DNA from: Candidatus Brevefilum sp.
Lineage (GTDB): Bacteria; Chloroflexota; Anaerolineae; Anaerolineales; Anaerolineaceae
Assembly: GCA_029210815.1 (NCBI GenBank)
Contig: JARGGB010000001.1
Span: 76,308-140,307, forward strand
DNA length: 64,000 nucleotides
Reading direction: 5' to 3'
Shown: in pieces, positions 8,936 to 28,950 of the stretch
Layout: each line of letters starts with the position of its first letter
Position numbering within the stretch: the stretch's first letter is position 1
Translations under genes and position numbers: made by a program
The notes under the pieces: model-generated
What the model was told of the DNA's origin: nothing
Seen by the model: the letters and a program-made list of their open reading frames with translations, nothing else
The model's database searches: none

Positions 8936-9511
8936 ATGATAAAAAAATTGACTGAACGTCACCCCAAAATATTCAACAAGACCAATGTGGCTAAGCTAAT
9001 AGCACTTTTTGTCGTTCTCGCGATTGCCGTTTGGGGATCCATGAAACTTGATTTCAATGACGTTAAAGCTTTCATCGAGCAGAATCAAAGCCAGGCAATC
9101 CTCATCAGCCTTTTGGTTTACATTTTATTCGGGTTCACATTTTTACCATCCATTCCATTAACCTTGTTTATTGCCGCCCTGATCGGTCCGCTTCAAGCAG
9201 CGCTGGTAGCTGCATTGGGCAACACAATTGCGTCACTTTTCGAATACCAAATTGGAAAAACCGTTGGCGATGTGATGGCGTTTGAAGATTTTAAGGCCAG
9301 TTTGCCGATGGGTCTCGATAAATTACCTGTTGATTCCCCGCTTTTTATGCTTGGGGCACGCAGTATTCCCGCTGGCGCACGAGCATTCAGTGTGGTTTGC
9401 GGTGCCTACCAGGTACACATGCCGACCTATTTATGGACAACCTCCCTGATGTATTTTTTAAGCTCTGTCATATTGACCTTTGGTGGCGTCAAATTAATCA
9501 ATCTTCTTTAA
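8936..9511 (+). CDS. TVP38/TMEM64-family (VTT domain) membrane protein
   Basis: A 191-residue inner-membrane protein with an N-terminal anchor (about 20-40) and a VTT/SNARE-associated domain containing the reentrant pattern FTFLPSIPLTLFIAALIGP and later ARSIPAGARAFSVVCGAY. The DedA/TVP38 superfamily takes part in lipid scrambling or membrane homeostasis; the specific role here is unknown. It is followed after 36 bases by a cupin gene and may be co-transcribed with it. Confidence 0.75.
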   Translation: MIKKLTERHPKIFNKTNVAKLIALFVVLAIAVWGSMKLDFNDVKAFIEQNQSQAILISLLVYILFGFTFLPSIPLTLFIAALIGPLQAALVAALGNTIASLFEYQIGKTVGDVMAFEDFKASLPMGLDKLPVDSPLFMLGARSIPAGARAFSVVCGAYQVHMPTYLWTTSLMYFLSSVILTFGGVKLINLL

Positions 9512-9547
9512 AAATCAAACAAAACAAAATTGAAGGATGGATCGTTT

Positions 9548-9874
9548 ATGATCGAAACAGTATTCACACTCTCGAATCACATTGACCGAACGGTAGAAAA
9601 AGTCATCCAGGATGATAATCTTGATTACATTCACATGTTGTTTAACAAAGACGAAGGTTTGCCCCTGCACTATTCAAATTCAAATGTGTACATGACGGTC
9701 CTTCGTGGCAATCTCTCCATTGCGCTTGATGACCAGGGAGTGCATGTTTACCCCGGTGGAACCCTTTTAAAAATCCCCTATAAAACCAAAATGAACGTTC
9801 AAAATATGCATGATGAGATGCTTGAACTGCTGGCAATCAAAGCACCTGCCCCCAAGAATTACCCAAAAGAATGA
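9548..9874 (+). CDS. Small cupin-domain protein
   Basis: A 108-residue single-domain cupin: DEGLPLHYSNSNVYMTVLRGNLSIALD corresponds to the first cupin motif and VYPGGTLLKIPYKTKM to the second. The usual metal-binding His set is incomplete, so metal binding is uncertain. The ATG at 9548 is preferred over the in-frame TTG at 9530 because GAAGGA lies at 9532-9537. Function unknown; small cupins often bind sugars or act as sensors. Confidence 0.65.
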   Translation: MIETVFTLSNHIDRTVEKVIQDDNLDYIHMLFNKDEGLPLHYSNSNVYMTVLRGNLSIALDDQGVHVYPGGTLLKIPYKTKMNVQNMHDEMLELLAIKAPAPKNYPKE

Positions 9875-9915
9875 ATTTTTGTAGATTTAATCCAACCCGA
9901 ACTATCAGTTAAAGC

Positions 9916-9942
9916 AAAAAAAAGCCCAAATGGGCTTTTTTT
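9916..9942. terminator. Bidirectional-type terminator
   Basis: A-run, AGCCCA, short loop, TGGGCT and T-run: the 27 bases form an almost perfect palindrome, able to terminate from either side. It closes the cupin gene. Confidence 0.85.
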
Positions 9943-9946
9943 GATG

Positions 9947-9981
9947 GGGTGCCTTAATCGAGTCGAAGCCTCAACCTCCTC
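9947..9981 (-). repeat. Degenerate tRNA-His 3'-end fragment
   Basis: These 35 bases align without gaps to 14215-14249, the T-arm and acceptor end of the tRNA-His gene, with 30 of 35 identical and in the same orientation. The rest of the tRNA is absent. Such displaced 3' ends are typical of attachment-site duplications left by tRNA-targeting integrases. Confidence 0.7.
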
Positions 9982-10105
9982 CAAAATATCAAATAACCAA
10001 TTCATATTTCACATCATGAACATTACAGTTTACTGCGAAATCTGAACGCAAAATTTTACACAAATACCCTTTGCAAATTAAAGGACTTTATCCCCTTTAA
10101 ATGAA

Positions 10106-10342
10106 TTAGGATTTAAGGTTTCTTATCAACTTTTGATATTCTTCCTCATCAATTTCACCGCGAGCATATCGCTCTTGTAATATATCCAATAAAGAATCCT
10201 CTACCTTGGTTGAAGGAGCATCATTGGAGCGCTGTTTGAGGAAATCTGGTCGCCGACCTGAAAAATAAGCGATGACCCCAATTACCAAAACAAGAACGAT
10301 CAGACCTCCAAAAACAAGGAATATCAGTCCAAAGAACATCAT
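10106..10342 (-). CDS. Small membrane protein with SHOCT domain
   Basis: A 78-residue protein with one N-terminal transmembrane helix (about 3-28) and a C-terminal SHOCT domain (LLDILQERYARGEIDEEEYQKL). SHOCT modules are short oligomerisation tails common on small membrane proteins, often next to copper-resistance genes. Here the gene lies directly downstream of the CopB-like pump on the same strand, about 157 bases away. Confidence 0.8.
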   Translation of the reverse strand: MMFFGLIFLVFGGLIVLVLVIGVIAYFSGRRPDFLKQRSNDAPSTKVEDSLLDILQERYARGEIDEEEYQKLIRNLKS

Positions 10343-10499
10343 TTTTTACCTTTCTACAGAATTCTTGAAAACATTATTAATACATTTGGATTCTGACATA
10401 TAATCATCAAGAATTCCTAAAGAAAGTGCAAAGATCAATTAAAGAATGCTTTCAGTGGGACGAAAACCCTGATGGTCACTACAGACCGTTTCCTCACAT

Positions 10500-13250: not shown

Positions 13251-13775
13251 CTAATTTAACCTCATAAGATATTCCGCCAGATCCTCAAGGTCTTCATCGC
13301 CGATATTCCATCTAGGCATATCTTCGCTGAGCGGTTCACCATCAGGGTGTTCACCCTCTACTACTGCCAGCCGGAAAAGTTTAAGATCATACTCACCACC
13401 ACCATGGCCTTCTTCATCATCACCATGCCCCTCATCTCCTTCACTGGCCAGTGAATCCCAGCGGATATCGGGTGCGTCCATAAACTGCATACCCATCATT
13501 GCATGCAATCCCCCTTGTGCATCTGGACCATGACAGGAGGCGCAAGCTAAATACCCACCTCCCATCATCACGCTGGAGGGTGGCCCACCAGAATATGTGA
13601 TTCTGGCATCTCTCTCACTTGAAGACGTGAAGTAAATCCGCTCGCCATTCGAATCAAAGGCACCTTCTCCCCATCCTGTGCCTGTTCTTCTCTGAAATAC
13701 CGTACAGGCATCAAGTAAAACAATTAACAAAAGCCCAAAGCCAAATATCAAGGTAATCCTGGTTACTTTTTTCAT
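13251..13775 (-). CDS. Cytochrome c-type lipoprotein with acidic/His insert
   Basis: A 174-residue exported protein. Residues 1-24 form a lipoprotein signal ending in LLDAC, so it should be anchored on the outer face of the membrane. A CASCHG heme c site follows at about residue 78, with a Met (DMPRWNI) near the C terminus as the likely second axial ligand and LAEYLMRLN as the final helix. Between them sits a DEGHGDDEEGHGGGEYD insert rich in Asp, Glu and His, possibly metal-binding. It may pass electrons or sense copper beside the CopB-like pump; its role is not established. No cytochrome c maturation genes are in the window. Confidence 0.8.
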   Translation of the reverse strand: MKKVTRITLIFGFGLLLIVLLDACTVFQRRTGTGWGEGAFDSNGERIYFTSSSERDARITYSGGPPSSVMMGGGYLACASCHGPDAQGGLHAMMGMQFMDAPDIRWDSLASEGDEGHGDDEEGHGGGEYDLKLFRLAVVEGEHPDGEPLSEDMPRWNIGDEDLEDLAEYLMRLN

Positions 13776-15734: not shown

Positions 15735-16103
15735 ATGAAATTAACAGAAATAGTCGACTTAATTAACGGCGAATTATTAACACAGGAAGAAGATTACAAA
15801 AAAGATATTACCGGTGCAATGGGTGCTGATCTGATGAGTGATGTTTTGGCTTCCATAAAACCAGAAGCAGCATTGCTCACAGGTTTATGTAACCCACAGG
15901 TTGTTCGCACAGCTTTAATTGCTGATATTCGAACGATTATCTTTGTGCGCGGGAAAAACCCTGATCGTGAAACAATCAGAATTGCCAATGAAGAACAAAT
16001 TCCCCTGATAACGACAAGCCTTGGCATGTTTGAAGCCTGCGGAATTCTACACAAAGCGGGTTTACTAAGTTATGAACTGCCTGCCAATGACGACTGCGCG
16101 TAA
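15735..16103 (+). CDS. DRTGG-domain protein 1
   Basis: A 122-residue protein consisting of one DRTGG domain: an N-terminal MKLTEIVDLINGEL helix, the MGADLMSDVLA segment, and a C-terminal ITTSLGMFEACGILHKAGL. DRTGG domains occur with CBS domains and phosphotransacetylase and are thought to bind a nucleotide or adenylate ligand. It opens a four-gene module (DRTGG, CBS-HATPase, DRTGG, PHP) directly upstream of the hydrogenase operon, an arrangement I recall from HydABC-type hydrogenase loci in other anaerobes. A regulatory role is inferred. Confidence 0.75.
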   Translation: MKLTEIVDLINGELLTQEEDYKKDITGAMGADLMSDVLASIKPEAALLTGLCNPQVVRTALIADIRTIIFVRGKNPDRETIRIANEEQIPLITTSLGMFEACGILHKAGLLSYELPANDDCA

Positions 16104-16117
16104 AAGGTAAATATGCC

Positions 16118-17089
16118 ATGACAGACGAACATCCACGGGTTTCAGACGAATTTGCCAAGAGCATTACCAGAACCGAAGAACTCGCATATGAACTTCGTAT
16201 CCATGAGGTAATGAGCGAGAACGTCCACTGCCTCCCGCCTGACATCAAATTGGAAGAAGCACTGGATATCTTTCAAAAAGAAAGGTTCTCAGGTGCACCG
16301 GTTATCACTAATGGTGATTTGGTTGGGCTTATCAGCATAGAAGACCTGATCCGGGCATTACGATCAGGGAACCTGGACGTTAATGTTAGTGAATATATGA
16401 CGACCAAAGTTGTCACTGTTCACGAATATGACCCGGTTGTTGAGGCGCTAAAAACCTTTTCCAGAACAAATTTTGGCCGCCTTCCCGTACTTGATAAACA
16501 AGGCAAACTGGTTGGTATCATCACCAAAGGGGACATATCCAATGGCTTATTAACAGCTTTGCAAAGGGACTACCATGCAGAAGAGCTGATCCGGTATCGC
16601 GCCAGTCACTTATTTGAAGATATTGTTTCCCATCGAACAAGTCTCATCCTGAGATACGAGATTCGAAAAGGAGATTTTATTCACGGCGGCAATGCGTCAA
16701 GCAATATTAAAAGGGCTTTGTTGAGATTAGGCGCTACGCCACAGATTGCCAGGCGCTGCGGTATTGCAGTTTATGAAGCAGAAATGAACCTGATCATTCA
16801 CACCAACCACGGCGGCTCCCTTCGTGTTGAGGTCGAACCCCACAAAATCACCATGGAAGCCTATGACGACGGTCCAGGCATTGAGGACGTTGAACAGGCG
16901 ATGAAGCCAGGTTACTCAACAGCCACCAACGAAATCCGTGAAATGGGTTTTGGCGCCGGGATGGGCTTGGTTAATATTAAGCGCTGTGTGGACGAAATGC
17001 GCTTGATCTCTTCAAGAGACCGCGGCACCAATTTATACATGATCATGTACCTTGATGATAAAGATAATACTTTAAATACTGTTAATTGA
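16118..17089 (+). CDS. CBS-pair protein with HATPase domain
   Basis: A 323-residue cytosolic protein. Two CBS domains (about 28-85 and 90-150) should bind adenine nucleotides. The C-terminal third is a GHKL ATPase fold of the anti-sigma/serine-kinase type, with DDGPGIEDVEQA as the G1 box and GFGAGMGLVNIKR as the G2 box. No histidine phosphoacceptor box or receiver is present, so it is not a normal two-component kinase. It may sense ATP/AMP and phosphorylate or sequester a partner. It sits between two DRTGG genes 14 and 28 bases away. Confidence 0.8.
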   Translation: MTDEHPRVSDEFAKSITRTEELAYELRIHEVMSENVHCLPPDIKLEEALDIFQKERFSGAPVITNGDLVGLISIEDLIRALRSGNLDVNVSEYMTTKVVTVHEYDPVVEALKTFSRTNFGRLPVLDKQGKLVGIITKGDISNGLLTALQRDYHAEELIRYRASHLFEDIVSHRTSLILRYEIRKGDFIHGGNASSNIKRALLRLGATPQIARRCGIAVYEAEMNLIIHTNHGGSLRVEVEPHKITMEAYDDGPGIEDVEQAMKPGYSTATNEIREMGFGAGMGLVNIKRCVDEMRLISSRDRGTNLYMIMYLDDKDNTLNTVN

Positions 17090-17117
17090 ACCCTCACCAT
17101 AAAAGAATTGAGACACT

Positions 17118-17468
17118 ATGAACTTGAATGAAATCATCCAAAACCTGAACCTGAAAGTCCTGACCAATTCAAAAGATTTTTCAACAATCAAGGTGAAAAG
17201 CGGTTACTGCTCAGATTTACTCAGCTGTGTTATGACCGGCGCCGAACCTGAAGGTATTTGGATCACCCTTATGTCACACAGCAATATCGTTGCCGTTGCT
17301 GCACTGCTCGACCTGGCTGCAATAATCATCACAGAAGATGCCCAACCTGATCAGCAGACGATCGATAAAGCTAACGAAAAAGATATCATAATGCTTTCAT
17401 CACCAGATCCAAACTACGAAGTCATTGGACAATTGTGGGAACTTGGTTTACGAGCAACCAAAAATTAA
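17118..17468 (+). CDS. DRTGG-domain protein 2
   Basis: A 116-residue single DRTGG-domain protein, similar in layout to the 15735 protein: MNLNEIIQNLNLKVL start, a GYCSDLLSCVMTGA segment and an ANEKDIIMLSS region. The two may form a heteromer around the CBS-HATPase protein. Its stop lies 17 bases before the preferred start of the PHP gene. Confidence 0.75.
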   Translation: MNLNEIIQNLNLKVLTNSKDFSTIKVKSGYCSDLLSCVMTGAEPEGIWITLMSHSNIVAVAALLDLAAIIITEDAQPDQQTIDKANEKDIIMLSSPDPNYEVIGQLWELGLRATKN

Positions 17469-17485
17469 CCCACAAGAAAGTACCT

Positions 17486-18232
17486 TTGAAAACCTATTTA
17501 TCTGAATTACACGTCCATACTGTATTATCACCCTGTGCGGGCGTGGAGATGATACCCCCATTAATCGTAAAAAAAGCGCTTGACATTGGCCTTAACCTGA
17601 TTGCGATAACAGATCATAATGCCAGTGAAAATGTGCCAGCAGTCATAAAAGCTGCAGAAGGGTCCGATTTAACTGTCTTACCCGGCATGGAACTGCAGAC
17701 AGAAGAAGACGTCCATATCCTTTGCTTGTTTGATACGGTGGAGCAACTAAACAAACTCCAGGAACTCGTTGATAAAACTTTACCTGATATAAAGAACAAT
17801 GTTGAATTTTTTGGTGAACAATTCATTGTCGACCAGACTGGCGAATTTATTCAACGAAAAGAACGCCTGTTGATCAATTCAACCCAATTAAGCTTTGATG
17901 AAGCATTCCGCTCTGTAACAGAATTGGGCGGCTTATTCATCCCTGCCCATGTCAACCGCCAGGCTTTTGGTTTGATTGATCACCTTGGTTTTGTCCCACC
18001 TGATTTAGATATTGAGGCTTTGGAGATATCCAGGCATATTTCCCTTGAAGAAGCAAAAAAAAATTTCCCCCAAATTAAGAAGTTCCCGCTCATTCAAAGC
18101 GGTGATGTCCATTATATTGATGATTTTTTAGGTGTAAATCAGTTTATAATTGAAAAGCCAACAATAGCCGAACTCAAGCAAGCGTTTAGATCAATTAATG
18201 GACGCTGCTTTACGGTCATATCGCACAATTGA
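17486..18232 (+). CDS. PHP-domain phosphoesterase-like protein
   Basis: A cytosolic protein of about 248 residues with PHP metal motifs: ELHVHTVLSPC (HxH), ITDHNASEN, GMELQTEEDVHILCLF and, late, QSGDVHYID. These fit a trinuclear metallo-phosphoesterase. The TTG at 17486 is preferred because AAGAAAG precedes it and HVHT then falls near the N terminus as usual; the frame stays open back to 17435. Its substrate is unknown. It ends the regulatory module that precedes the hydrogenase operon. Confidence 0.75.
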   Translation: MKTYLSELHVHTVLSPCAGVEMIPPLIVKKALDIGLNLIAITDHNASENVPAVIKAAEGSDLTVLPGMELQTEEDVHILCLFDTVEQLNKLQELVDKTLPDIKNNVEFFGEQFIVDQTGEFIQRKERLLINSTQLSFDEAFRSVTELGGLFIPAHVNRQAFGLIDHLGFVPPDLDIEALEISRHISLEEAKKNFPQIKKFPLIQSGDVHYIDDFLGVNQFIIEKPTIAELKQAFRSINGRCFTVISHN

Positions 18233-18264: not shown

Positions 18265-18293
18265 TTGACCTGCTGGCTGTTGGGTATTACACT
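18265..18293 (+). promoter_or_regulatory. Hydrogenase operon promoter
   Basis: TTGACC (18265-18270), a 17-base spacer and TACACT (18288-18293). The predicted transcription start falls within the adjoining Rex-like operator. Confidence 0.6.
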
Positions 18294-18296
18294 GAT

Positions 18297-18314
18297 TTGT
18301 GGTAAATTTCACAA
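18297..18314 (+). promoter_or_regulatory. Rex-like operator
   Basis: TTGTGGTAAATTTCACAA matches the Rex consensus TTGTGAA-N4-TTCACAA at 12 of 14 fixed positions. It begins three bases after the -10 box, a position suited to repression. A weaker related site (CTGTGGGTCATTTCACCC) follows at 18316-18333. Rex senses the NADH/NAD+ ratio, which would fit an NAD(H)-linked hydrogenase. No rex gene is in the window. Confidence 0.65.
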
Positions 18315-18365: not shown

Positions 18366-18890
18366 ATGCAAAAAACAATGGAAAAAAGTATAGAAGCTAA
18401 TCCCCTTAATGATCCGGAACAACGATCCATTATCGATCAAATATTAGATGAAAACAAAGATCTTGCTGGGGCGACAATGGTCGTTCTTAACAGCTTGCAG
18501 GAGGCTATTGGTTACATCTCTCCGGAAATGCAAGTATATGTTGCAAAAAAATTAGGTGAACCCGTTAGTCGGATCCATGGTGTTGTTTCCTTTTACTCCT
18601 TCTTTACAACAACCCCTCGAGGTAAACACACCATAAAATTCTGTATTGGAACCGCTTGTTATGTGAGCGGCATCGAACAGATTATTGAAAAAGCAAAACA
18701 AATCCTGGAGATTGAACCTGGAGAGACAACTGATGATGGTTTGATTACTTTAGAGTTTTGCCGTTGTGTTGGTGCATGCAGCCAGGCACCTGTTATGGTT
18801 GTGGATGAAGAGGTTCAGGGACGTGTGAAAGCAAATCGCTTCCCAAAGACCATTCAGGACATTAAAAAAATGGAAGCAAACCTTGCGTGA
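18366..18890 (+). CDS. hydC: HydC/NuoE-like [2Fe-2S] subunit 1
   Basis: A 174-residue NuoE/HydC-type subunit: a helical N-terminal part, then a thioredoxin-like fold with all four cluster cysteines (C93, C98 in CIGTAC; C134, C138 in CRCVGAC). It should carry a [2Fe-2S] cluster next to the FMN of a NuoF/HydB partner. It is the first gene after the Rex-like operator. A second copy lies at 21709; this one has a longer N terminus and the two are clearly divergent, so they probably pair with different NuoF proteins or act at different places. Confidence 0.9.
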   Translation: MQKTMEKSIEANPLNDPEQRSIIDQILDENKDLAGATMVVLNSLQEAIGYISPEMQVYVAKKLGEPVSRIHGVVSFYSFFTTTPRGKHTIKFCIGTACYVSGIEQIIEKAKQILEIEPGETTDDGLITLEFCRCVGACSQAPVMVVDEEVQGRVKANRFPKTIQDIKKMEANLA

Positions 18891-19449
18891 ATTGGCTTTG
18901 CACATTCTGGACATCGCTGAAAACAGCATTTCAGCAAACGCCGATGAGATAAAAATCATCGTCGAAGAAGATTTGCAAAAAGATATACTCAGGATTCTCA
19001 TCCAGGATAATGGCAAAGGTATGGACGCTGAAACACTGGCGAAAATCACTGACCCTTTTATCACATCCAGGAAAACACGAAGCGTCGGATTGGGAATTCC
19101 ATTTTTCAAAGCAGCTGCCGAGGCTTGCCAAGGGTCATTCACAATTCATTCAGTTCCCGGCAAGGGTACAACGGTGGAGGCTGTTTTCAAACACAGCCAC
19201 ATCGACCGAATGCCACTGGGTGACATTGAAAGCACTTTAATAACCTTATTAATGGGTACACCCGAAATTCATTGGATATTTGAATATCGGAATAACGAAA
19301 GTTGTTTTATTTTTGACGACAAACCTATCAAAGAAACCCTTGAAGGGATCCCATTATCAGAACCCGCGGTAATGAGATACATCCGCGAGATGATAGAAAC
19401 CGGCATCCAGGAGGTTCACCTTTCTGGAATAATGGAAGCTACACATTAA
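18883..19449 (+). CDS. HATPase-fold protein inside hydrogenase operon
   Basis: A 188-residue protein with a GHKL ATPase domain: an N box around ENSISANADEI, G1 DNGKGMDAETL, the F box DPFITSRKTR, and G2-like GLGIPFFKAA with GKGTTVEAVF. There is no histidine phosphoacceptor or sensor domain. The TTG start overlaps the end of the preceding HydC gene by 8 bases, indicating translational coupling. Similar small ATPases recur in HydABC-type operons; a regulatory or protein-kinase role is inferred. The C-terminal 70 residues are unassigned. Confidence 0.75.
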   Translation: MRELALHILDIAENSISANADEIKIIVEEDLQKDILRILIQDNGKGMDAETLAKITDPFITSRKTRSVGLGIPFFKAAAEACQGSFTIHSVPGKGTTVEAVFKHSHIDRMPLGDIESTLITLLMGTPEIHWIFEYRNNESCFIFDDKPIKETLEGIPLSEPAVMRYIREMIETGIQEVHLSGIMEATH

Positions 19450-19482: not shown

Positions 19483-19851
19483 ATGCCCAGTGTAAAATCA
19501 TTAGATGATCTCAAGAAAATTCGCGAAGATGCACTCAAAAAGCAGCAATTAAAAGAAACCTCAGGTAAAACAGAGGTGATTGTTGGCATGGGAACTGTTG
19601 GTATTGCAGCTGGCGCTCGCGAGACTCTGAAAGCAATACTTGACATAATTGAAAAAGATAACCTGAGTGACATCATTATTCGCCAAACAGGCAATATTGG
19701 CCTTGACTCATACGAACCCATTGTTCAGGTCATTCTCCCTGGCGAAGAAAAAGTATCCTATGGGAAAGTCAACCCCGAAATGGCTCGCCGTATCATGAAA
19801 GAACATGTTTTGGGTGGTGAAATCGTAAAAGATTTTCAAATCGAAGGATAA
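19483..19851 (+). CDS. HndB-like protein lacking all cysteines
   Basis: A 122-residue protein with the thioredoxin-like ferredoxin fold of HndB: VGMGTVGIAAGA, RQTGNIGLDSYEPIVQV and VSYGKVNPEMARRI. In cluster-binding relatives four positions are Cys (CMGTCGIAAGA and TGCIGLC patterns, from memory). Here they are G35, V39, N71 and D75, and the protein has no cysteine at all. It therefore cannot bind a [2Fe-2S] cluster in the usual way and is probably structural. It lies between the HATPase gene and HydB, 36 bases before the latter. Confidence 0.8.
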   Translation: MPSVKSLDDLKKIREDALKKQQLKETSGKTEVIVGMGTVGIAAGARETLKAILDIIEKDNLSDIIIRQTGNIGLDSYEPIVQVILPGEEKVSYGKVNPEMARRIMKEHVLGGEIVKDFQIEG

Positions 19852-19887: not shown

Positions 19888-21672
19888 ATGGCTTATTTCC
19901 GTTCACATGTTTTAGTATCTGTTGATCCTGTATGCGTGCAAAAAGGCGCATACGAGTTGATCGAGACTCTTCAGGATGAAATTGTCAAACAGGGACTGGT
20001 TGAAGAAGTCCAGGTCCTTGAGACTTCGAGGATCGGTGATCCTGAGACAGAAGGTCTCGATTTAATGGTCTACCCTGAGGCAGTCCATTACACGAAGTTA
20101 ACCCTCGATGATGTTCCTTTTTTGGTTGAAGAACAATTTTTAAAAGGACGCATCGCTGAACAATACATTCGTGAGACTAAAAAAGTCGTTGATGAAGAAT
20201 TGTCCGCACCCAAAACCAAAGAGGTCCGGATTGTTTTGAAAAACATTGGAGAAATCGATCCCCTAAATATTGAAGATTACATCGCCCGGGATGGCTACAT
20301 GGCGCTTGGGAAAGTACTCACAGAGATGACCCCTGAAGAAACAATCCAGGAAGTTTTGGATTCTGGCCTGCGAGGTCGTGGTGGTGCAGGTTTCCCAACA
20401 GGTCTCAAATGGCGCTTCATTCGCAATGCGGAAGCCGAACAAAAATACATGATTTGCAACGCCGATGAAGGTGACCCGGGCGCATTTGCAAACCGTCGTG
20501 TTCTTGAAGGTGACCCTCATTCTGTTGTTGAGGGGATGATCATCGGCGCTTATGCAGCTGGCGCATCCCAGGGATATATTTACTGCCGTGCAGAGTATCC
20601 CATTGCGGTTAGAACAATGAAAACCGCCATTGAGCAAGCACGAAATTTCGGTTTACTCGGTGACAATATCCTTGGCAGCGGTTTTTCATTCGATCTTGAA
20701 GTCCGAATGGGTGCAGGCGCATTTGTTTGCGGTGAAGAAACGGCTTTAATGGCTTCTATCGAAGGACTACGCGGCGAACCTCGCCCACGTCCCCCATTCC
20801 CGGCGCAAAAAGGTCTTTGGGAACAACCTTCAAACATTAACAATGTTGAAACCTATTCGAATGTCCCACAAATCATCCTCAAAGGTGCGGAATGGTTTTC
20901 CAGCCTTGGCTATAAGAAAAGCACTGGAACGAAAACCTTCTCAATGGCAGGCGATGTAAAAAATACAGGTTTAATCGAAGTACCCTTTGGCATTACCCTT
21001 CAAGAGATCATCTATGATGTAGGGGGCGGCATTAAAGAAGATAAAAAGTTTAAAGCTGTGCAGACTGGTGGTCCCATGGGCGGCTGTTTGCCTGAAAACC
21101 TCCTTGATCTTCATATGGATTATGAAGCCCTGGCAGAAGCAGGCTCAATCTTGGGTTCAGGCGGTCTTGTCGTCATGGATGAGGACACCTGCATGGTGGA
21201 TATCGCCAGGTTCTTTATGGATTTCACCCAGGATGAAAGCTGCGGTAAATGCACGCCCTGCCGGATTGGTACACGACGCATCCTCGAAATCCTCACCAGA
21301 ATTTGTGAAGGCAAAGGAAAGCCCGACGACATCGATACCCTGCGTTATCTTTGTGACCAAATCAATGAAAACAGCCTTTGTGGATTAGGCAAAGGTGCGC
21401 CGAATCCTGTAAAGAGCACACTCGAACACTTCCTCGATGAATATGAAGCCCATATTTATGAGAAACGCTGTCCTGCAAAGGTCTGCAAATCCTTAATTCG
21501 GTTTGAAATTATTGATGGGCTCTGCACGGGATGTACACTCTGCGCCCGGAACTGCCCGGTGGATGCAATTTCAGGTGAGCGCCGCCAAACACACGTGATC
21601 GATCCCGATATTTGCATCAAATGCGGTATTTGTGAACAACTATGCCCATACGATGCAATTGAAATAAAATAA
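19888..21672 (+). CDS. hydB: HydB/NuoF-like FMN subunit 1 with ferredoxin tail
   Basis: A 594-residue flavin subunit of an NAD(H)-linked hydrogenase. Residues 1-110 resemble the thioredoxin-like domain but keep only one of four cluster cysteines (C16). The NuoF core follows: [13 protein letters not shown] and the [10 protein letters not shown] segment for FMN/NADH, the [13 protein letters not shown] region, an SLBB domain, and the N3-type [4Fe-4S] motif [11 protein letters not shown] with a later Cys in LCGLG. The last 60 residues hold two [4Fe-4S] motifs ([12 protein letters not shown] and [12 protein letters not shown]). This tail is the hallmark of bifurcating HydB, where it is thought to meet ferredoxin. 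It is paired with HydC genes on both sides. Confidence 0.92.
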
Positions 21673-21708: not shown

Positions 21709-22188
21709 ATGGCAACCGAAGTCAAAGAAGGGCAGGATATCCGCAAATTAGTGCGGACACTTGTCCAAAACCACGGTGATGAAAAGGCTGAACTCATCCC
21801 CATCCTTCATGAAATCAATCGTGAATTGGGGTACATCTCCGATGAGGCAATCAAAGAACTCAGCAAAAGGATGAATCTCCCCTCAAGCCACATATACTCT
21901 GTCGCAACTTTTTATCGAATGCTTTCAACTGAACCCCGGGGGCGTCACGTCATTCAATTTTGCGAGAGTGCACCCTGTCATGTTACCGGAGGGCGCCTGG
22001 TCTGGCAAAAACTCCAAAGAGAGCTGGGTTTACCAAAAGGAGAAACAAGCCAGGATAACAAATGGACCCTGCTCACAACAAGCTGCCTTGGCTTGTGCGG
22101 CGTTGGTCCGGTCATGGTTATTGATAACGACATCTATGGAAACGTGACACCCGAACAGGTGCCAGGTATCCTCAAAAATTACGAATAG
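21709..22188 (+). CDS. hydC2: HydC/NuoE-like [2Fe-2S] subunit 2
   Basis: A 159-residue NuoE-type subunit with intact [2Fe-2S] ligands C85, C90 (CESAPC) and C126, C130 (CLGLC). The N-terminal helical part reads LIPILHEINRELGYIS, as usual. It starts 36 bases after the first HydB and ends 10 bases before the second NuoF-type gene, and probably pairs with the latter. Having two HydC genes in one hydrogenase operon is unusual. Confidence 0.9.
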   Translation: MATEVKEGQDIRKLVRTLVQNHGDEKAELIPILHEINRELGYISDEAIKELSKRMNLPSSHIYSVATFYRMLSTEPRGRHVIQFCESAPCHVTGGRLVWQKLQRELGLPKGETSQDNKWTLLTTSCLGLCGVGPVMVIDNDIYGNVTPEQVPGILKNYE

Positions 22189-22198
22189 GAGGCCTTTC

Positions 22199-23845
22199 AT
22201 GAAAACAACACGTTCAATGGTATTGGTTTCAAGTGATCCTGAAAGTTTGGATCGTGGCGCTCTGGATGTCTTCAGCTTACTGCAAAAGCAAATTACAAAA
22301 TTTGGACTTGAGGAAGAAATAGCCCTTTCAATGATCACCGATATCAGTAAACACGCAATGAGCCCGCTTGTATTGGTATATCCTGATGCGGTTATTTACG
22401 GTCCTGTCACCACGGATGATGTTCCCCGGATTGTCGAAGAACATCTTTATAAAGGTCGGGTCGTAGAGGAAAAACAAATCTCTGCTTATGATCTTTCAGG
22501 ACGGGTGGCATGGCTCTCATCCCGAAAAGGGACAATGCCAGCTGAAAATCGCATTGTCCTGAAAAATGTCGGTCTCATTGACCCCGAGAACATTGAAGAA
22601 TCCATCATCAATGAGGGATATGAGGCTCTTGGAACCGTGCTCAAAGAGATGACGCCTGATGAGACCATTAAAGTGATCAAAGATTCCGGTTTACGAGGAC
22701 GCGGTGGCGCAGGTTTCCCAACGGGTCTTAAATGGCAATTTGTGAAAGGCGCAAAGGGTAATAAAAAATACGTCATTTGCAATGCCGATGAGAGTGAGCC
22801 AGGCACATTCAAGGATCGTCTTGTCCTGGAAGGTGACCCCCACGGCATCATCGAAGCCATGTTGATCGCAGCTTATGCAGTCGGTGCAGATGAGGGTTAT
22901 GTCTATATTCGTGGTGAATATGGCTTAGCCATCAGCCGAATGCAAAAAGCAATCCAGCAAGCCAGAGACTACAACTTACTCGGAGAAAATATTTTTGGAA
23001 CAGATTTTTCCTTTGATATCCACATCCATGCGGGTGCTGGAGCATATATCTGTGGGGAAGAGACTGCCTTAATCGAATCAATTGAAGGCAACCGCGGCGA
23101 ACCTCGCCCAAGGCCGCCCTATCCAACAACCGCAGGACTTTGGCAAAAACCAACCCTGGTCAACAATGTTGAAACCCTTGCAAACATCCCGGCGATTATT
23201 CGCAACGGCGCTGCCTGGTACAAAAACATTGGAACACCTTCAAGCCCAGGAACAAAAGTTTACACCGTTCTGGGCAATGTCAATGTTACTGGTCTGATTG
23301 AGGTACCAATGGGCATCACCCTGCGCGAGGTGATTTCAATCTATGCAAAAGGCATGAAAGATGGTGCAACCTTTAAATTAGCACAAACAGGTGGCTCAAG
23401 CGGCTCAATCATCCCCGCAAGCCTTCAGGATACACCAATGGATTTCGATTCCTACACTAAAGCGGGTGTTTCTTTAGGCTCTGGCGCATTATTGATTTGT
23501 AATGAGGACATTTGCGTTGTAGATCTGGCAAAAGTATTGTTGAACTTTTTCAGATTCGAAAGCTGCGGTAAATGTAATCCTTGCCGAATAGGGAACAAAA
23601 GAGCCCATGAAACGCTTGTCAACATTTCTGAAGGTGTCGGAACTTTACAGGATTTGAAAGACCTTCAAATGATGAGCGAACAGCTTTACGAAATGTCCAA
23701 TTGTGGTCTCGGGCAAACAGCCGGTTCCCCCTTAAAAGATATCTTAGCGCACTTTAGAGCAGAAGTTGAAGCGCACATTAAATTAAAAGTTTGTCCTGCA
23801 GGCGTTTGCCCAATGAGCGGCCAGCGGATCTACAAGACTATTTGA
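22199..23845 (+). CDS. hydB2: HydB/NuoF-like FMN subunit 2, no ferredoxin tail
   Basis: A 548-residue paralogue of the 19888 protein. The N-terminal thioredoxin-like part has no cysteine at any cluster position. The core is intact: [40 protein letters not shown] and the [4Fe-4S] motif CGKCNPCRIGN with a later NCGLG Cys. It stops soon after CPAGVCP, lacking the two C-terminal [4Fe-4S] motifs of the first copy. It should oxidise or reduce NAD(P)H through FMN and hand electrons to HydA, but could not use the ferredoxin-contact tail. GAGGC in the ribosome site sits 10 bases before the ATG. Confidence 0.9.
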   Translation: MKTTRSMVLVSSDPESLDRGALDVFSLLQKQITKFGLEEEIALSMITDISKHAMSPLVLVYPDAVIYGPVTTDDVPRIVEEHLYKGRVVEEKQISAYDLSGRVAWLSSRKGTMPAENRIVLKNVGLIDPENIEESIINEGYEALGTVLKEMTPDETIKVIKDSGLRGRGGAGFPTGLKWQFVKGAKGNKKYVICNADESEPGTFKDRLVLEGDPHGIIEAMLIAAYAVGADEGYVYIRGEYGLAISRMQKAIQQARDYNLLGENIFGTDFSFDIHIHAGAGAYICGEETALIESIEGNRGEPRPRPPYPTTAGLWQKPTLVNNVETLANIPAIIRNGAAWYKNIGTPSSPGTKVYTVLGNVNVTGLIEVPMGITLREVISIYAKGMKDGATFKLAQTGGSSGSIIPASLQDTPMDFDSYTKAGVSLGSGALLICNEDICVVDLAKVLLNFFRFESCGKCNPCRIGNKRAHETLVNISEGVGTLQDLKDLQMMSEQLYEMSNCGLGQTAGSPLKDILAHFRAEVEAHIKLKVCPAGVCPMSGQRIYKTI

Positions 23846-23872: not shown

Positions 23873-25768
23873 ATGATTAAACTCACAATTGACGGAAAAG
23901 AAATCGAAGCCCAGGAAGGTACCACTGTTTTAGAAGCTGCAGAAGCTGCTGGTGTTTTTGTACCAACTTTATGCCATCATCCGCAGCTTACCCCTTATGG
24001 CGGTTGCCGGCTGTGCATGGTCGAAGTTGAAGGTGCGGGCACCTTACAGCCTTCCTGCACATTGCCTGCAACGAATGGGATGGCCGTGAAAACGAACACA
24101 CAAAAGGTGCTTGACGCTCGAAAGTTCGTCTTAACGCTTATTTTCAGTGAACGCAACCACTTCTGCATGTACTGCCAGGTCAGCGGCGGCGATTGCGAAC
24201 TTCAAAATCGTGCTTATGACGAGGGCATGACCCACTGGGATTTGCAGCCAAACTGGCAGCCCTTTGAGGTTGATGCGTCGCATCCCTTCATGGTGCTCGA
24301 TAATAACCGCTGTATTTTATGCCGGCGCTGCGTACGGGCATGTGGTGAATTGGTAGGCAACTATACACTGGGCTTTGAAGAGCGCGGTGCAGACAGCTTA
24401 CTTGTTGCTGATTACAATGTGCCCTTTGGAGAATCCTCCTGCATATCTTGCGGTACCTGTGTCCAAATTTGCCCAACAGGTGCGATCATTGATCGCCAGA
24501 GCGCTTACCAGGGCAAGGAGACGGAAGTGGACCATCACATCGGCGTATGTGTTGAATGCTCCGTCGGCTGCCAGAGAGACGTCCTCACACGAGACAATCG
24601 ACTTATTCGCATCGAAGGCGAATGGGATGCCGTACTGAATCACGGCTTGTTGTGCGATAAAGGTCGCTTCCTCCCCCTGGAAGATGATCGTGCACGCTTG
24701 CTCACACCCCTCGTTCGAAAAGACGGGAGTCTCAAAGCTGCAACCTGGGACGATGCCATGAAAGCGATTGCAGAAGGTCTGGGCAAAGGTAAAGGTTTAG
24801 CAGCAATTGCTTCAACACGCTTACCCATCGAAGATTTAGCACTTTTTAAATCGGTCTTTGCTGATGCGCTGCAGGCAGGCTTGGTGACAACACTTGAAGA
24901 GGGCAAAGCAACAGCCTCCCTTGCAAAAATGGCAGAAAAACTCGGGAAACCATTTGAATCAAATTTGGATGTTTTGAAAGACACAGATGCTGTCCTATCA
25001 CTTGAACTTGATTTAGTGGACGAGCATCAAGTTGCTGGTTTCTTCGTGAAACGCCAAATAGCAGATGGCACAAAGCTAGTTGTCGCAGACGGTAAAGGCA
25101 ATAAACTTGCAGAAAATGCCTCCTTCAAACTGGATCTCAAAGCTGGTGATGAGAATGCATTCTTAGCAAAACTATACGAAGCAACCCAAAATGAAACCGG
25201 TGATGAGGATTTTGATAAGGCTGCAAAGCTTTTGAAGAATGCTAAGAAACCCGTTATTGTCTATGGCGAAGGTTTTGCTGCACACGCAGATGAAAAAGCT
25301 CTTGAAACATTGTTAGAAATTTCAGAATCACTGGGAGCAGAACTTGTTGGTGTCAAAGGCAATGCAAACAGTATGGCAGCATCACAACTGGGACTTGAAG
25401 CACCCATCAAAGTAAATGGGCACAAATCTGCATTCGTTATGCTGGGTGATGAAGAACCCTCCCAGAAATTGGTCAAACAGCTTGAGGAAGTTCCCTTTGT
25501 GGTTGCACTCTCAGCTTACGGTTCCCAGTTGACCGGAAATGCTGACGTTGTTTTGCCGGTGACAATGTGGGCAGAACAATCCGGAACTTACATGAACATG
25601 GATGGGCGTATGCAAAAAGCAGTCCAGGCTTTGGAAATACCGGAAGGCGTCCTCACTTCAAGGGAAACACTCCTTAAGATTTCTGAATCCCTCTCTATTG
25701 AGACTGATGCAGATTGGAAAACTAAAGTCACATCACGAACACCAACTGTTGAAATCAAAGAAGTGTAA
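23873..25768 (+). CDS. hydA: HydA/NuoG-like Fe-S electron-wiring subunit
   Basis: A 631-residue protein of NuoG layout. A plant-type [2Fe-2S] domain has C34, C45, C48 and C63. Next come a His-ligated [4Fe-4S] site (HFCMYCQVSGGDC), two [4Fe-4S] motifs (CILCRRCVRAC and CISCGTCVQICP), and a further [4Fe-4S] in the molybdopterin-type domain (CVECSVGC ... LLCDKGRF). The remaining 350 residues resemble a molybdopterin oxidoreductase fold without a visible cofactor site. There is no [FeFe]-hydrogenase H-cluster domain; the catalytic role is taken by the [NiFe] pair just downstream. It links the NADH-side flavins to HydS. Confidence 0.92.
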   Translation: MIKLTIDGKEIEAQEGTTVLEAAEAAGVFVPTLCHHPQLTPYGGCRLCMVEVEGAGTLQPSCTLPATNGMAVKTNTQKVLDARKFVLTLIFSERNHFCMYCQVSGGDCELQNRAYDEGMTHWDLQPNWQPFEVDASHPFMVLDNNRCILCRRCVRACGELVGNYTLGFEERGADSLLVADYNVPFGESSCISCGTCVQICPTGAIIDRQSAYQGKETEVDHHIGVCVECSVGCQRDVLTRDNRLIRIEGEWDAVLNHGLLCDKGRFLPLEDDRARLLTPLVRKDGSLKAATWDDAMKAIAEGLGKGKGLAAIASTRLPIEDLALFKSVFADALQAGLVTTLEEGKATASLAKMAEKLGKPFESNLDVLKDTDAVLSLELDLVDEHQVAGFFVKRQIADGTKLVVADGKGNKLAENASFKLDLKAGDENAFLAKLYEATQNETGDEDFDKAAKLLKNAKKPVIVYGEGFAAHADEKALETLLEISESLGAELVGVKGNANSMAASQLGLEAPIKVNGHKSAFVMLGDEEPSQKLVKQLEEVPFVVALSAYGSQLTGNADVVLPVTMWAEQSGTYMNMDGRMQKAVQALEIPEGVLTSRETLLKISESLSIETDADWKTKVTSRTPTVEIKEV

Positions 25769-25813: not shown

Positions 25814-26356
25814 ATGTCAAAACCTAAAGTAGCATCGGATTGGTTATGTGGATGCGCAGGATGCCATATGTCACTTCTTGACATCGACGAACGAATTTTA
25901 CAGGTGGTTGAACTTGTCGACCTGCGCGCAACACCTATCACCGACTTAAAAGAACCGGATGAAGATGGGGTAACCGTAGGTATTCTTGAAGGCGGGATCA
26001 ATAACACCTATAACGAAGAGATCGCCAAGAAGATGCGTGAACGCTGCAAGATCCTCGTTGCCCTGGGTGATTGTGCTGTATTTGGCGGCGTCCCTGCCAT
26101 GCGTAACTTTGTTGGAGCAGACGCAGCATTGCAACGGGCTTATGTAGAAGCTGAAAGCAATGATTCCGAAGGAAAAATCCCCTCATCCCCGGAACTTGCT
26201 CAAATGACCCGTGTTCGAGCGGTCAGCGAAGTTGTCCCCGTTGATTTATTTATTCCAGGGTGTCCTCCAGATGCAGATGTGATCTTTTATGCGCTGGTAG
26301 AACTGGCTCAGGGGCGAATTCCAGAAATTAAAAATAAAAATTTACACTGGCACTAG
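25814..26356 (+). CDS. hydS: [NiFe] hydrogenase small subunit (HoxY/HydS-like)
   Basis: A short 180-residue small subunit. It carries one proximal [4Fe-4S] set: WLCGCAGCHMSLLD near the N terminus, LGDCAVFGG in the middle and PGCPPDAD near the end. The medial and distal cluster domains of membrane hydrogenases are absent, as in HoxY of group 3d and HydS. There is no Tat signal, so the enzyme is cytosolic. It starts 45 bases after HydA and is followed 12 bases later by the large subunit. Confidence 0.95.
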   Translation: MSKPKVASDWLCGCAGCHMSLLDIDERILQVVELVDLRATPITDLKEPDEDGVTVGILEGGINNTYNEEIAKKMRERCKILVALGDCAVFGGVPAMRNFVGADAALQRAYVEAESNDSEGKIPSSPELAQMTRVRAVSEVVPVDLFIPGCPPDADVIFYALVELAQGRIPEIKNKNLHWH

Positions 26357-26368
26357 GAGATAAGAACT

Positions 26369-27796
26369 ATGGCAACAGAAAAAATAACAATTGAACCAGT
26401 AACCAGAATTGAAGGTCACGCAAAGGTGACCATACATATGAATGACAATGGCACAGTGGACCATGCATATTTTCATGTCAACGAGTTTCGTGGTTTTGAA
26501 AAATTCTGCGAAGGACGCATGGTCTTTGAAATGCCCCAAATTACGCCAAGAATTTGCGGAATCTGCCCGGTAAGCCATCACCTGGCAGCAGCAAAGGCCG
26601 GCGATGCCGTTATGGGCGTTGAACCACCACCAACAGCCTCTCTCCTCAGGGAGCTCATGCACATGGGGCAAATCATCCAGAGTCATGGGATGCACTTTTT
26701 TGAACTCGCTGGACCAGACCTGATTCTTGGTTTCGACGCAGATCCGGCAATTCGCAATATTGTTGGCTTAATTGGCGCAGACCCTGAATTAACATTACGT
26801 GCTGTTGAACTCCGAAAATTCGGACAGGACGTCATCTTCCAGGTCGGTGGCCGACGTATCCACCCCAATTTTGCGGTTCCTGGCGGCGTAAACCATTCGT
26901 TAACCCAAGAAAAACGTGACCATATGCTTGCTGGCCTGGATAAAGCCCAGGAAACGACCTTGATTGGCATTCAAATCATCAAGGATTGGGCAGAAGCCAA
27001 TATGGAAGATATCGAGAAATTTGCTGTATTTCATACCGGTTATTTCGGTTTAGTGACACCGGAGAATGGTCTCGAACTTTATGATGGTAAAATTCGGCTT
27101 GTTGATAGAGAAGGAAAACAACTGGAGTGCTTCGATGCTCAGGATTACCTGGATGTCGTTTCAGAGCACGTCGAAGATTGGTCCTATCTCAAGTTCCCCT
27201 ACTACAAAAAGATGGGTTGGCCAGACGGCGTTTATCGAGTTGGGCCATTAGGCAGGTTGAATGCCATCGACAAGATCGATACGCCCTTAGCCCAAAAGGA
27301 ATTTGAAGTTTACCGGCAAATCAACCATGGTAAGCCAGTATTTCAAACGCTTTATTATCACTATGCCCGTTTGATTGAAACCTTATTTGCTGTTGAACGA
27401 ACCCGCGAACTCCTGCATCACCCTGACATTTTAGGGAGAGATATTCTTAACAAGAAATTCAATTTTAAAGGTGAAGGAGTTGGCGTTATTGAAGCTCCTC
27501 GCGGTACCCTGTTCCATCACTATAAGGCCAAACCAAGCGGTCAACTTGAAAAAGTTAACTTGATCGTCTCAACGGGACATAACAACTGGGCAATGAGTGA
27601 AGCAGTGGACTCGGTTGCAAAAACCTATGTCAAAGGTCCTGATGTGCAAGAAGGTATGCTCAACCGCGTAGAGGCAGCTATTCGTGCTTACGATCCCTGC
27701 CTGTCATGCTCAACCCATGCTGTTGGGCAAATGCCGATCAAAATTGATGTACACAATTCACGGGGTGAAATAACCCAAACCCTGAAACGTGACTGA
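26369..27796 (+). CDS. hydL: [NiFe] hydrogenase large subunit (HoxH/HydL-like)
   Basis: A 475-residue catalytic subunit. The four active-site cysteines are present: C63 and C66 in [12 protein letters not shown]444 and C447 in DPCLSCSTH. The motif spacing fits bidirectional NAD-linked group 3 enzymes. After H450 come 25 residues that should be removed by the maturation protease encoded next (27871). It interconverts H2 with protons and electrons; with the HydABC-like subunits the complex likely couples H2 to NAD(H) and possibly ferredoxin. Confidence 0.95.
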
Positions 27797-28473: not shown

Positions 28474-28950
28474 ATGCTCTCACAGGTCGATATCGCCTCA
28501 ACAATAAAATCCATTCCCTGGTTTCTCGACTTATCAATCGAAAGCCTCCAAACGTTGACAGGGATCGCAGACGTTCACTCATACAATGCCGGTGATGTCA
28601 TTTTCTCTGAGGGTGAAAAACATCCTTACCTCTATGTAATTCTTGAGGGCAGCATTCAGCTGGAAAGCTTTGTCCCTGGTCACGGATCGCTCCACTACCT
28701 CACTGCAGAGTCGCTCGATGTGATTGGTTGGTCAAGCCTGACACCTGTCGTTCGGCAAAAAACCGGCTCTGCCATCGCTCTTGAACCAACCCGTTTGCTG
28801 GCTTTTCATGCCAGCACCTTAATGGAATTATGTGAAAAAGATTGTGATCTTGGCTTTGTGATCATGAAGCGCCTTGCAAACATCATTGCTTCAAGACTTC
28901 TAACCCATCGATTACATTTATTGGAATTGATCTCCTGTCAGAATCGATAA
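28474..28950 (+). CDS. Cyclic-nucleotide-binding-fold protein without HTH
   Basis: A 158-residue protein with a Crp/Fnr-type effector domain: YNAGDVIFSEGEKHPYLYVILEGSIQL and later VIGWSSLTPVVRQKTGSAIALEPTRLL. A long helix follows (MKRLANIIASRLLTHRLHLLEL), corresponding to the Crp dimer helix, and then the protein ends. The DNA-binding domain is missing, so it is not a conventional transcription factor. It may bind a small ligand and act on a neighbour; the role in the hydrogenase locus is unknown. Confidence 0.75.
   Translation: MLSQVDIASTIKSIPWFLDLSIESLQTLTGIADVHSYNAGDVIFSEGEKHPYLYVILEGSIQLESFVPGHGSLHYLTAESLDVIGWSSLTPVVRQKTGSAIALEPTRLLAFHASTLMELCEKDCDLGFVIMKRLANIIASRLLTHRLHLLELISCQNR

Follow-up and report, generated by a model that had tools for sequence, protein, structure and literature searches.

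A conserved module of a putative kinase, DRTGG proteins and a PHP protein upstream of a bifurcating-type [NiFe] hydrogenase operon of Candidatus Brevefilum sp., and the exchange of its putative sensor

The closest described counterparts of the system treated here are clusters of Clostridia in which a histidine kinase-like ATPase and a group D (M2e) sensory hydrogenase, HydS, lie upstream of the bifurcating hydrogenase HydABC, as given in the available parts of two papers (PMC8163306, PMC3608648). In the first of these, as far as its available part goes, Land et al. describe TamHydS as flanked by the ATPase and by a gene annotated as an AraC regulator (PMC8163306), and the accessible sections of two others term the partners and the signal path of HydS unknown (PMC13104023, PMC11376134). 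The present computational analysis concerns a stretch of 64,000 nucleotides (the window) of Candidatus Brevefilum sp. (Chloroflexota; contig JARGGB010000001.1), in which four intact, co-directional genes at 15735-18232 encode a DRTGG protein (D1), a CBS-pair HATPase (K), a second DRTGG protein (D2) and a PHP-family phosphoesterase, all as read in an earlier note on this DNA and recovered by Pfam and, for D2, also by an AlphaFold model. The module is real and conserved, and it is partly known, appearing here in a new form. The kinase family is common to the window and the Clostridial clusters, and the homologous HATPase has DRTGG and PHP neighbours in the window as in the HydS-type relatives examined, whereas in the window HydS is missing, the kinase carries a fused CBS pair and the enzyme is of the [NiFe] type. 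Around the kinase of the HydS-type relatives there are usually DRTGG genes, then PHP and HydC-E-D-B, and HydS adjoins the kinase; these relatives, and not the T. mathranii locus itself, are the basis of the comparison. The earlier note had called the system uncharacterised, which does not hold for the pairing of the ATPase with a group D hydrogenase ahead of HydABC; for the DRTGG/PHP core, the CBS form and the exchange of sensors no description was found in the open-licence literature. The module genes are:

15735..16103, forward strand, DRTGG protein 1, D1 (PF07085, 8.5e-9)
16118..17089, forward strand, CBS pair with SpoIIAB-like HATPase, putative sensor kinase, K (CBS in two stretches, 8.9e-34; HATPase_c_2, 4.6e-9)
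17118..17468, forward strand, DRTGG protein 2, D2 (PF07085, 25.0 bits; PF02603, 24.7 bits; AlphaFold model)
17486..18232, forward strand, PHP-family phosphoesterase, probable TTG start (PHP, 6.5e-10)

The source genome measures 2.66 Mb and is 96% complete, and the window kinase is 96% identical as a protein to that on an Anaerolineaceae contig (L017). The intergenic gaps are 14 bp (D1-K), 28 bp (K-D2) and 17 bp (D2-PHP, counted from TTG 17486), and 133 bp separate the end of the PHP gene from the structural genes. The TTG at 17486 (MKTYLSELHVH), and not GTG 17435, is most likely the PHP start; the protein of a relative (L018) begins MKTYRAELHVH. The PF07085 score of D2 falls just below the cut-off (25.2), that of PF02603 above it (24). 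The full D1-K-D2-PHP order with HydE was found in Chloroflexota, Planctomycetota, Myxococcota, Nitrospirota, Cloacimonadota, Delongbacteria, Atribacterota, Fidelibacterota and Bacillota, and a partial order in Spirochaetota, Acidobacteriota and Verrucomicrobiota; since the same order recurs in several phyla, the four-gene arrangement is not a product of chance.

GTDB genomes were scanned for relatives of K, and from at least 533 places the best 80 were taken. With 46 further stretches from other genomes (labelled G) and the window, the neighbourhood counts comprise 127 loci; discarding kinases with 95% identity or more left 116 non-redundant ones, and 75 of these are flanked by 5 kb or more on each side. 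In the phylum of Pelotomaculum the match to K was limited to the HATPase half in 68 of the 73 K-bearing genomes, and the kinases lacking the CBS pair in the fetched loci are stand-alone proteins, mostly of 140-170 residues. At most of these loci a gene of about 440 residues sits between the kinase and D2, with an Fe_hyd_lg_C domain and a C-terminal FeS domain (Pfam; L107, L113), mostly with the motif [S/T]PCxxK and with Cx2Cx4Cx16C. These domains and cysteine motifs are among the features given for group D/M2e HydS, for example TamHydS, in the available part of PMC8163306. By its sequence the Clostridial gene is thus a group D HydS, a putative H2 sensor, and its reading as HydB was rejected, the domains and motifs being those of HydS. 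With HydS counted as beside the kinase when on the same strand and within 3 kb, it accompanied none of the 90 CBS-type kinases (short flanks included, 54 of the 90 loci being flanked by 5 kb or more on each side) against 22 of the 24 CBS-less ones, nearby or fused, in the 116 non-redundant loci, two of which are cut by contig ends.

Two kinase loci (L121, L122), in which no PHP gene was found and whose stretches contain an [FeFe] HydA gene, have neither CBS nor HydS and may use a third input. One of the 22 HydS loci (L112) carries a split HydS (9097-10454) in frames of 126 and 317 residues, with the searched H-cluster motifs missing, which from its sequence would be either a decayed sensor or a sequencing error. 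Fusions join the parts in several ways: K to HydS (L127, L128), HydS to D2 (L113) and PHP to HydE (L057, L071, L077, L103, L106). On a tree of the HATPase half at least five changes of kinase type are required by parsimony, and a single change sufficed in 0 of 200 bootstrap trees. None of the 14 CBS-type Chloroflexota had a HydG match above the cut-off, against 5 of the 11 remaining CBS hosts, 11 of the 17 HydS hosts (G657, which carries both kinds of kinase, being counted in the 17) and both hosts having neither; from these counts the capacity for H-cluster maturation explains the exchange at best partly. No HydS was found at the window locus and no HydG match in the source genome, which therefore probably has no H-cluster maturation.

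A gene of the BfuB/NuoF type (hereafter BfuB, the counts also taking in some NuoF-like proteins that lack the 4Fe-4S part at the C-terminus) was present in 59 of the 75 well-flanked loci, and a hydrogenase catalytic subunit in 40 of 75, a lower bound as the stretches end about 10 kb away. The thresholds for BfuB were E up to 1e-150 in Chloroflexota, up to 1e-200 in the Pelotomaculum phylum and a profile score above 150 in the neighbourhoods, and the kinase was counted per genome from only 7 to 11 scored candidates. Among 301 Chloroflexota genomes, 140 had a BfuB match, namely all 15 K-bearing genomes, each near full length, and 125 of the 286 without K (Fisher 7e-6, uncorrected for phylogeny); K and BfuB lay on one contig within about 5 kb in 13 of the 15 and on separate contigs in two (G192, G290). 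Among 199 genomes of the Pelotomaculum phylum the corresponding figures were 72 of 73 K-bearing genomes and 87 of 126 others (Fisher 3e-8, likewise uncorrected), with BfuB within 12 kb of K in at least 43 of the 73. K was found in 5 of 199 genomes of the phylum to which L072 (a Planctomycetota bacterium) belongs. The co-occurrence proposed as a check in the earlier note was thus borne out for the kinase and BfuB, and the pattern it named as speaking against the idea, a module mostly without a hydrogenase nearby, was not seen. What stands of its control system for bifurcating hydrogenases is a conserved module of ligand-sensing and ATPase proteins with a strong link to bifurcating enzymes, a link that extends beyond hydrogenases.

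Two of the 16 well-flanked loci without BfuB adjoin rnf genes. In L129 (8160-15557) a CBS-type kinase with a HydD-like protein stands directly ahead of an rnf operon, in the order D1-K-HydD-RnfC-D-G-E-(A)-B (the bracketed gene was unscanned), and in L098 rnfC and rnfD lie downstream of the module with several other genes between; control of Rnf is possible in both. The other BfuB-less loci contain a [NiFe] large subunit (L055, L078), an HdrA-like gene (L050), a FAD/4Fe-4S gene (L066), an amidase gene (L097), a rubrerythrin gene that follows PHP at about 0.3 kb (L096, Pelotomaculum) or a glnE-type gene directly after PHP (L037), the remainder being L079, L087, L101, L102, L105, L109 and L122. 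From the Rnf and Bfu contexts, what the loci have in common as neighbour is a ferredoxin/NAD redox complex, not specifically a hydrogenase, and in a minority of copies neither lies within reach. In a separate group of stretches (L060-L092, e.g. L074:4758-15685; Planctomycetota and candidate phyla) the module is surrounded by HydC with an N-terminal FAD/Fer4 part and by HdrA-like proteins with an N-terminal 2Fe-2S domain, which perhaps form a complex of the Bfu-Hdr type.

K consists of a CBS part (about residues 26-150) and a HATPase part (about 174-314) with E220/N224, DxGxG at 250-254 and GFGAGMGL at 277-284. All three motifs are conserved in the homologue alignment, N224 being invariant and E220 present in at least 90% of 25 aligned homologues; the alignments used here are hand-picked subsets of loci (A2 25, A3 14, A4 17, A5 23, A6 25 and A7 21 sequences). 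E220 and N224 line up with the Glu/Asn of the SpoIIAB N box, residues that we take to be catalytic in K. On the predicted model (pLDDT 84.9) the best structural match of the kinase half by VIA-align was SpoIIAB (1til_E, Z 19.2, root mean square deviation 2.0 over 135 residues), and the CBS half matched AMP-, ADP-, ATP- and Ap4A-bound CBS pairs with Z of about 16, its best match being 2p9m (Z 17.6), for which no ligand is named; these matches span mainly one domain each, and the absence of other folds among them carries no meaning. We infer nucleotide sensing by K solely from the CBS resemblance. No DHp/HisKA or receiver domain and no response regulator was found in K, HydE and their neighbours by Pfam (all cluster genes except 21709-22188, the scope of the Pfam statements below), in keeping with the system without response regulator envisaged in the earlier note.

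Both DRTGG proteins have an invariant Asp and Ser in a DLxS motif, D32 and S35 of D1 being 100% conserved in 105 homologues (family motif D-L-M-S-D), and D33, S36 and N56 of D2 in 98. The best Protein Data Bank match of the D2 model (pLDDT 96) was the DRTGG protein 2ioj, and its fold is near that of the CBS-DRTGG regulatory region of the C. perfringens family II pyrophosphatase (3l31/3l2b), in which the same two domain types form one solved structure. In the window, by contrast, CBS and DRTGG stand on separate proteins and the output is a GHKL ATPase; D1, K and D2 have no pyrophosphatase catalytic domain by Pfam, and the NCBIfam PRK14869 models scored far below their cut-off. In the PHP protein (numbered from an aligned reading that begins at 17480) HxH, DH, E71, H79, H157 and D209xH211 are invariant in 17 sequences, the His, Asp and Glu residues being presumably metal ligands. 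Fusions of DRTGG with PHP or with the kinase, suggested by long open reading frames (L062, L083, L084, L090, L064, L079, L095), were rejected, as the N-terminal extensions gave no DRTGG match and resemble upstream or wrong-frame read-through.

The structural operon following the module comprises:

18366..18890, forward strand, HydC/BfuC-like 2Fe-2S thioredoxin-fold subunit (PF01257, 6.2e-44; HoxE/NuoE family matches below cut-offs)
18883..19449, forward strand, HydE-type orphan HATPase, GHKL with histidine kinase-like boxes (Pfam), overlapping hydC by 8 nt
19483..19851, forward strand, HydD-like small 2Fe-2S ferredoxin-type protein (NF041612, 4.4e-7, below its cut-off)
19888..21672, forward strand, HydB/BfuB flavin mononucleotide (FMN)/NADH subunit with C-terminal 4Fe-4S dicluster domain (PF01512, PF10589, Fer4)
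21709..22188, forward strand, second NuoE/HydC-like subunit (HydC profile)
22199..23845, forward strand, second NuoF-like subunit without C-terminal ferredoxin domain (Pfam scan)
23873..25768, forward strand, NuoG/BfuA-like subunit (PF13510, Fer4, PF00384)
25814..26356, forward strand, [NiFe] hydrogenase small subunit (PF01058)
26369..27796, forward strand, [NiFe] hydrogenase large subunit (PF00374), both Cys motifs, RICGIC and DPCLSC, read in the translation

The domains identify the encoded enzyme as a [NiFe] hydrogenase built on a BfuBC core of the bifurcating type, for which bifurcation is predicted: it has BfuB (FMN/NADH, NADH 4Fe-4S and further 4Fe-4S domains), BfuC, BfuA and the small and large [NiFe] subunits that make up the NiFe type of Bfu enzyme, the domain definition being that of the available part of PMC9304861. 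The HydABC type assumed in the earlier note was abandoned, an [FeFe] enzyme being ruled out by the [NiFe] subunits. The orphan HATPase that the note placed inside the operon is indeed there; it is of the HydE type, keeps the GHKL boxes, has no DHp domain by Pfam and gave a sub-threshold HTH_24 match (0.013). A HATPase gene also lies between hydC and hydD in Acetobacterium woodii ('sensory transduction histidine kinase HydE', Awo_c27000; PMC10472528, available part), a likeness of gene position and name. The BfuABC core, the [NiFe] subunits and hisK and hydD in the operon are shared with the NiFe-HydABCSL/Bfu enzyme of Acetomicrobium mobile; besides these parts the window has the second NuoE/NuoF pair and the CBS/DRTGG/PHP module, which A. 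mobile may or may not lack. The second pair (21709-23845), inside the operon here, is also present in several Chloroflexota relatives.

Transcription appears to be regulated separately, the following predicted element lying between the module and the structural operon:

18297..18314, forward strand, Rex operator-like palindrome TTGTGGTAAATTTCACAA, one mismatch

Boxes with at most two mismatches to what we take to be the Rex consensus occurred in 20 of 46 PHP-HydC gaps (shuffled, 1.6%) and in 20 of 99 regions upstream of D1 (shuffled, 1.0%), these being the qualifying members of the 116 loci, partly close kin, with shuffles preserving single-base composition only. This comparison of gaps between genomes is the only informative one, the pattern across the whole window giving no excess (7 matches against 5.0 expected). 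Promoter-like hexamers at 18265-18293, just upstream of the palindrome, came from a scan not above chance, promoter and terminator scans of the window giving no excess over shuffles (7 against 7.6 and 1 against 3.5). The source genome encodes a Rex-type N-terminal domain. NADH/NAD control of operon transcription thus appears, from the sequence, to be handled by Rex, so that a second, post-translational layer is the likelier task of the kinase module, and the control system proposed in the earlier note is incomplete in this respect.

The best reading of the data, to which we would give about even credence, is a kinase/phosphatase switch with exchangeable sensors acting on ferredoxin/NAD redox complexes. 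The four genes and the HydE-type HATPase would form a signal-transduction module whose core is the SpoIIAB-like GHKL ATPase, a probable Ser/Thr protein kinase, with the two DRTGG proteins, PHP being a metal-dependent phosphoesterase and probably the opposing phosphatase. In the window the kinase would receive its input from its own fused CBS pair, which most likely senses energy charge through adenine nucleotides, and in many Clostridia the same kinase without the CBS pair would be served by the separate group D HydS. The output is most likely post-translational, a reversible phosphorylation tuning bifurcation, with the invariant DLxS Ser of the DRTGG proteins and/or a subunit of the neighbouring redox complex as probable target and with transcription set separately by the NADH sensor Rex. 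We infer the ligand, the kinase and phosphatase activities, the substrate and the direction of control. A more specific version, advanced tentatively, is a sigma-free partner-switching in which the SpoIIAB-type kinase and the PHP phosphatase would reversibly phosphorylate DRTGG adaptors or Bfu/Rnf subunits and so gate NADH/ferredoxin bifurcation by the exchangeable sensor (CBS for adenylates, the HydS H-cluster for H2).

Several observations weigh against the switch. The model of K has a pTM of 0.48, which leaves its domain arrangement unsure, and several homologues have a degenerate second CBS motif. Compared with the SpoIIAB/RsbW anti-sigma serine kinases, with which it shares the fold and the N-box Glu/Asn, K has an extra CBS input and reaches 51.6 bits with the NCBIfam spIIAB model, far below the cut-off of 135, and no STAS partner or sigma factor was found by Pfam among the cluster genes, the rest of the genome being unsearched. 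The K-HydS fusions score lower and have no PCxxK motif, which makes their H-cluster doubtful; 6 of the 17 HydS hosts have no HydG above the cut-off (one with a partial match at a contig start); and the kinase tree is poorly resolved, its well-supported branches forcing only one change. BfuB is absent from 16 of the 75 well-flanked loci, L037, L096 and L097 having neither Bfu nor Rnf in the examined stretch. The module is absent from 125 of the 140 Chloroflexota genomes with BfuB, and the kinase from 87 of 159 such genomes in the Pelotomaculum-phylum sample, so the module is dispensable for bifurcation. Finally, HydS of the PAS type (group C) is assumed or reported to control expression, not activity, in the available parts of three papers (PMC10055695, PMC11837493, PMC8924675).

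The last point belongs also to an unlikely alternative, a transcriptional partner-switching in which the kinase is an anti-sigma-type factor, the DRTGG proteins are its antagonists and expression of the hydrogenase operon is controlled. SpoIIAB as best fold match of K would agree with it, as would the AraC-annotated gene beside TamHydS (PMC8163306), the role of expression regulator assumed for group C HydS in T. maritima and the effects of related HydS/HfsB genes on expression in R. albus and Thermoanaerobacterium (PMC10055695, PMC11837493, PMC8924675; parts available). However, no sigma factor, STAS protein or DNA-binding domain reached the Pfam cut-off in the scanned window-cluster genes (HTH_24 in HydE being sub-threshold), the gene after HydS is usually a DRTGG protein in the loci studied here, and the Rex operator already serves transcription. 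A slightly less probable alternative is a general energy or redox stress module that hitch-hikes with redox operons and has its real target elsewhere; the 11 of 54 well-flanked CBS-type loci without BfuB, including those with rubrerythrin (L096) and the glnE-type gene (L037), favour it, but the strong co-occurrence and close spacing do not, nor do the position of HydE, which lies in or next to the module as well as the structural operon, and the occurrence of Rnf as a second context. The least probable is an assembly or maturation chaperone, in which the GHKL ATPases and the DRTGG/PHP proteins build the Bfu complex or load its cofactors. It could appeal to hisK and hydD of the Acetomicrobium operon, which are outside the holoenzyme according to a figure legend in PMC9304861. 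Against it stands the absence of the kinase from most BfuB genomes in both phyla, and the swap of CBS for a putative H2-sensing hydrogenase fits sensing, not assembly.

Should the sigma-free partner-switching be true, it would be the missing signal path of the group D sensory hydrogenases, and the conserved kinase, the two DRTGG proteins, PHP, HydE and the K-HydS and HydS-DRTGG fusions name likely signalling partners of HydS. The same core persists, with a CBS pair, in organisms that have no HydS; both inputs therefore probably lead to one output, which is testable in either system. The exchange of sensors is therefore the main interest, making sensory-hydrogenase signalling testable, and if the bifurcating complex is the target, a central energy-coupling step of anaerobes would be under post-translational control.

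Two further genes were noted in the surroundings. Just downstream of the hydrogenase genes, 28474-28950 encodes a protein of 158 residues whose only Pfam domain is a cyclic-nucleotide-binding one, and upstream of the module, at 13251-13775, reading of the translation revealed a small protein with a CxxCH haem-binding motif.

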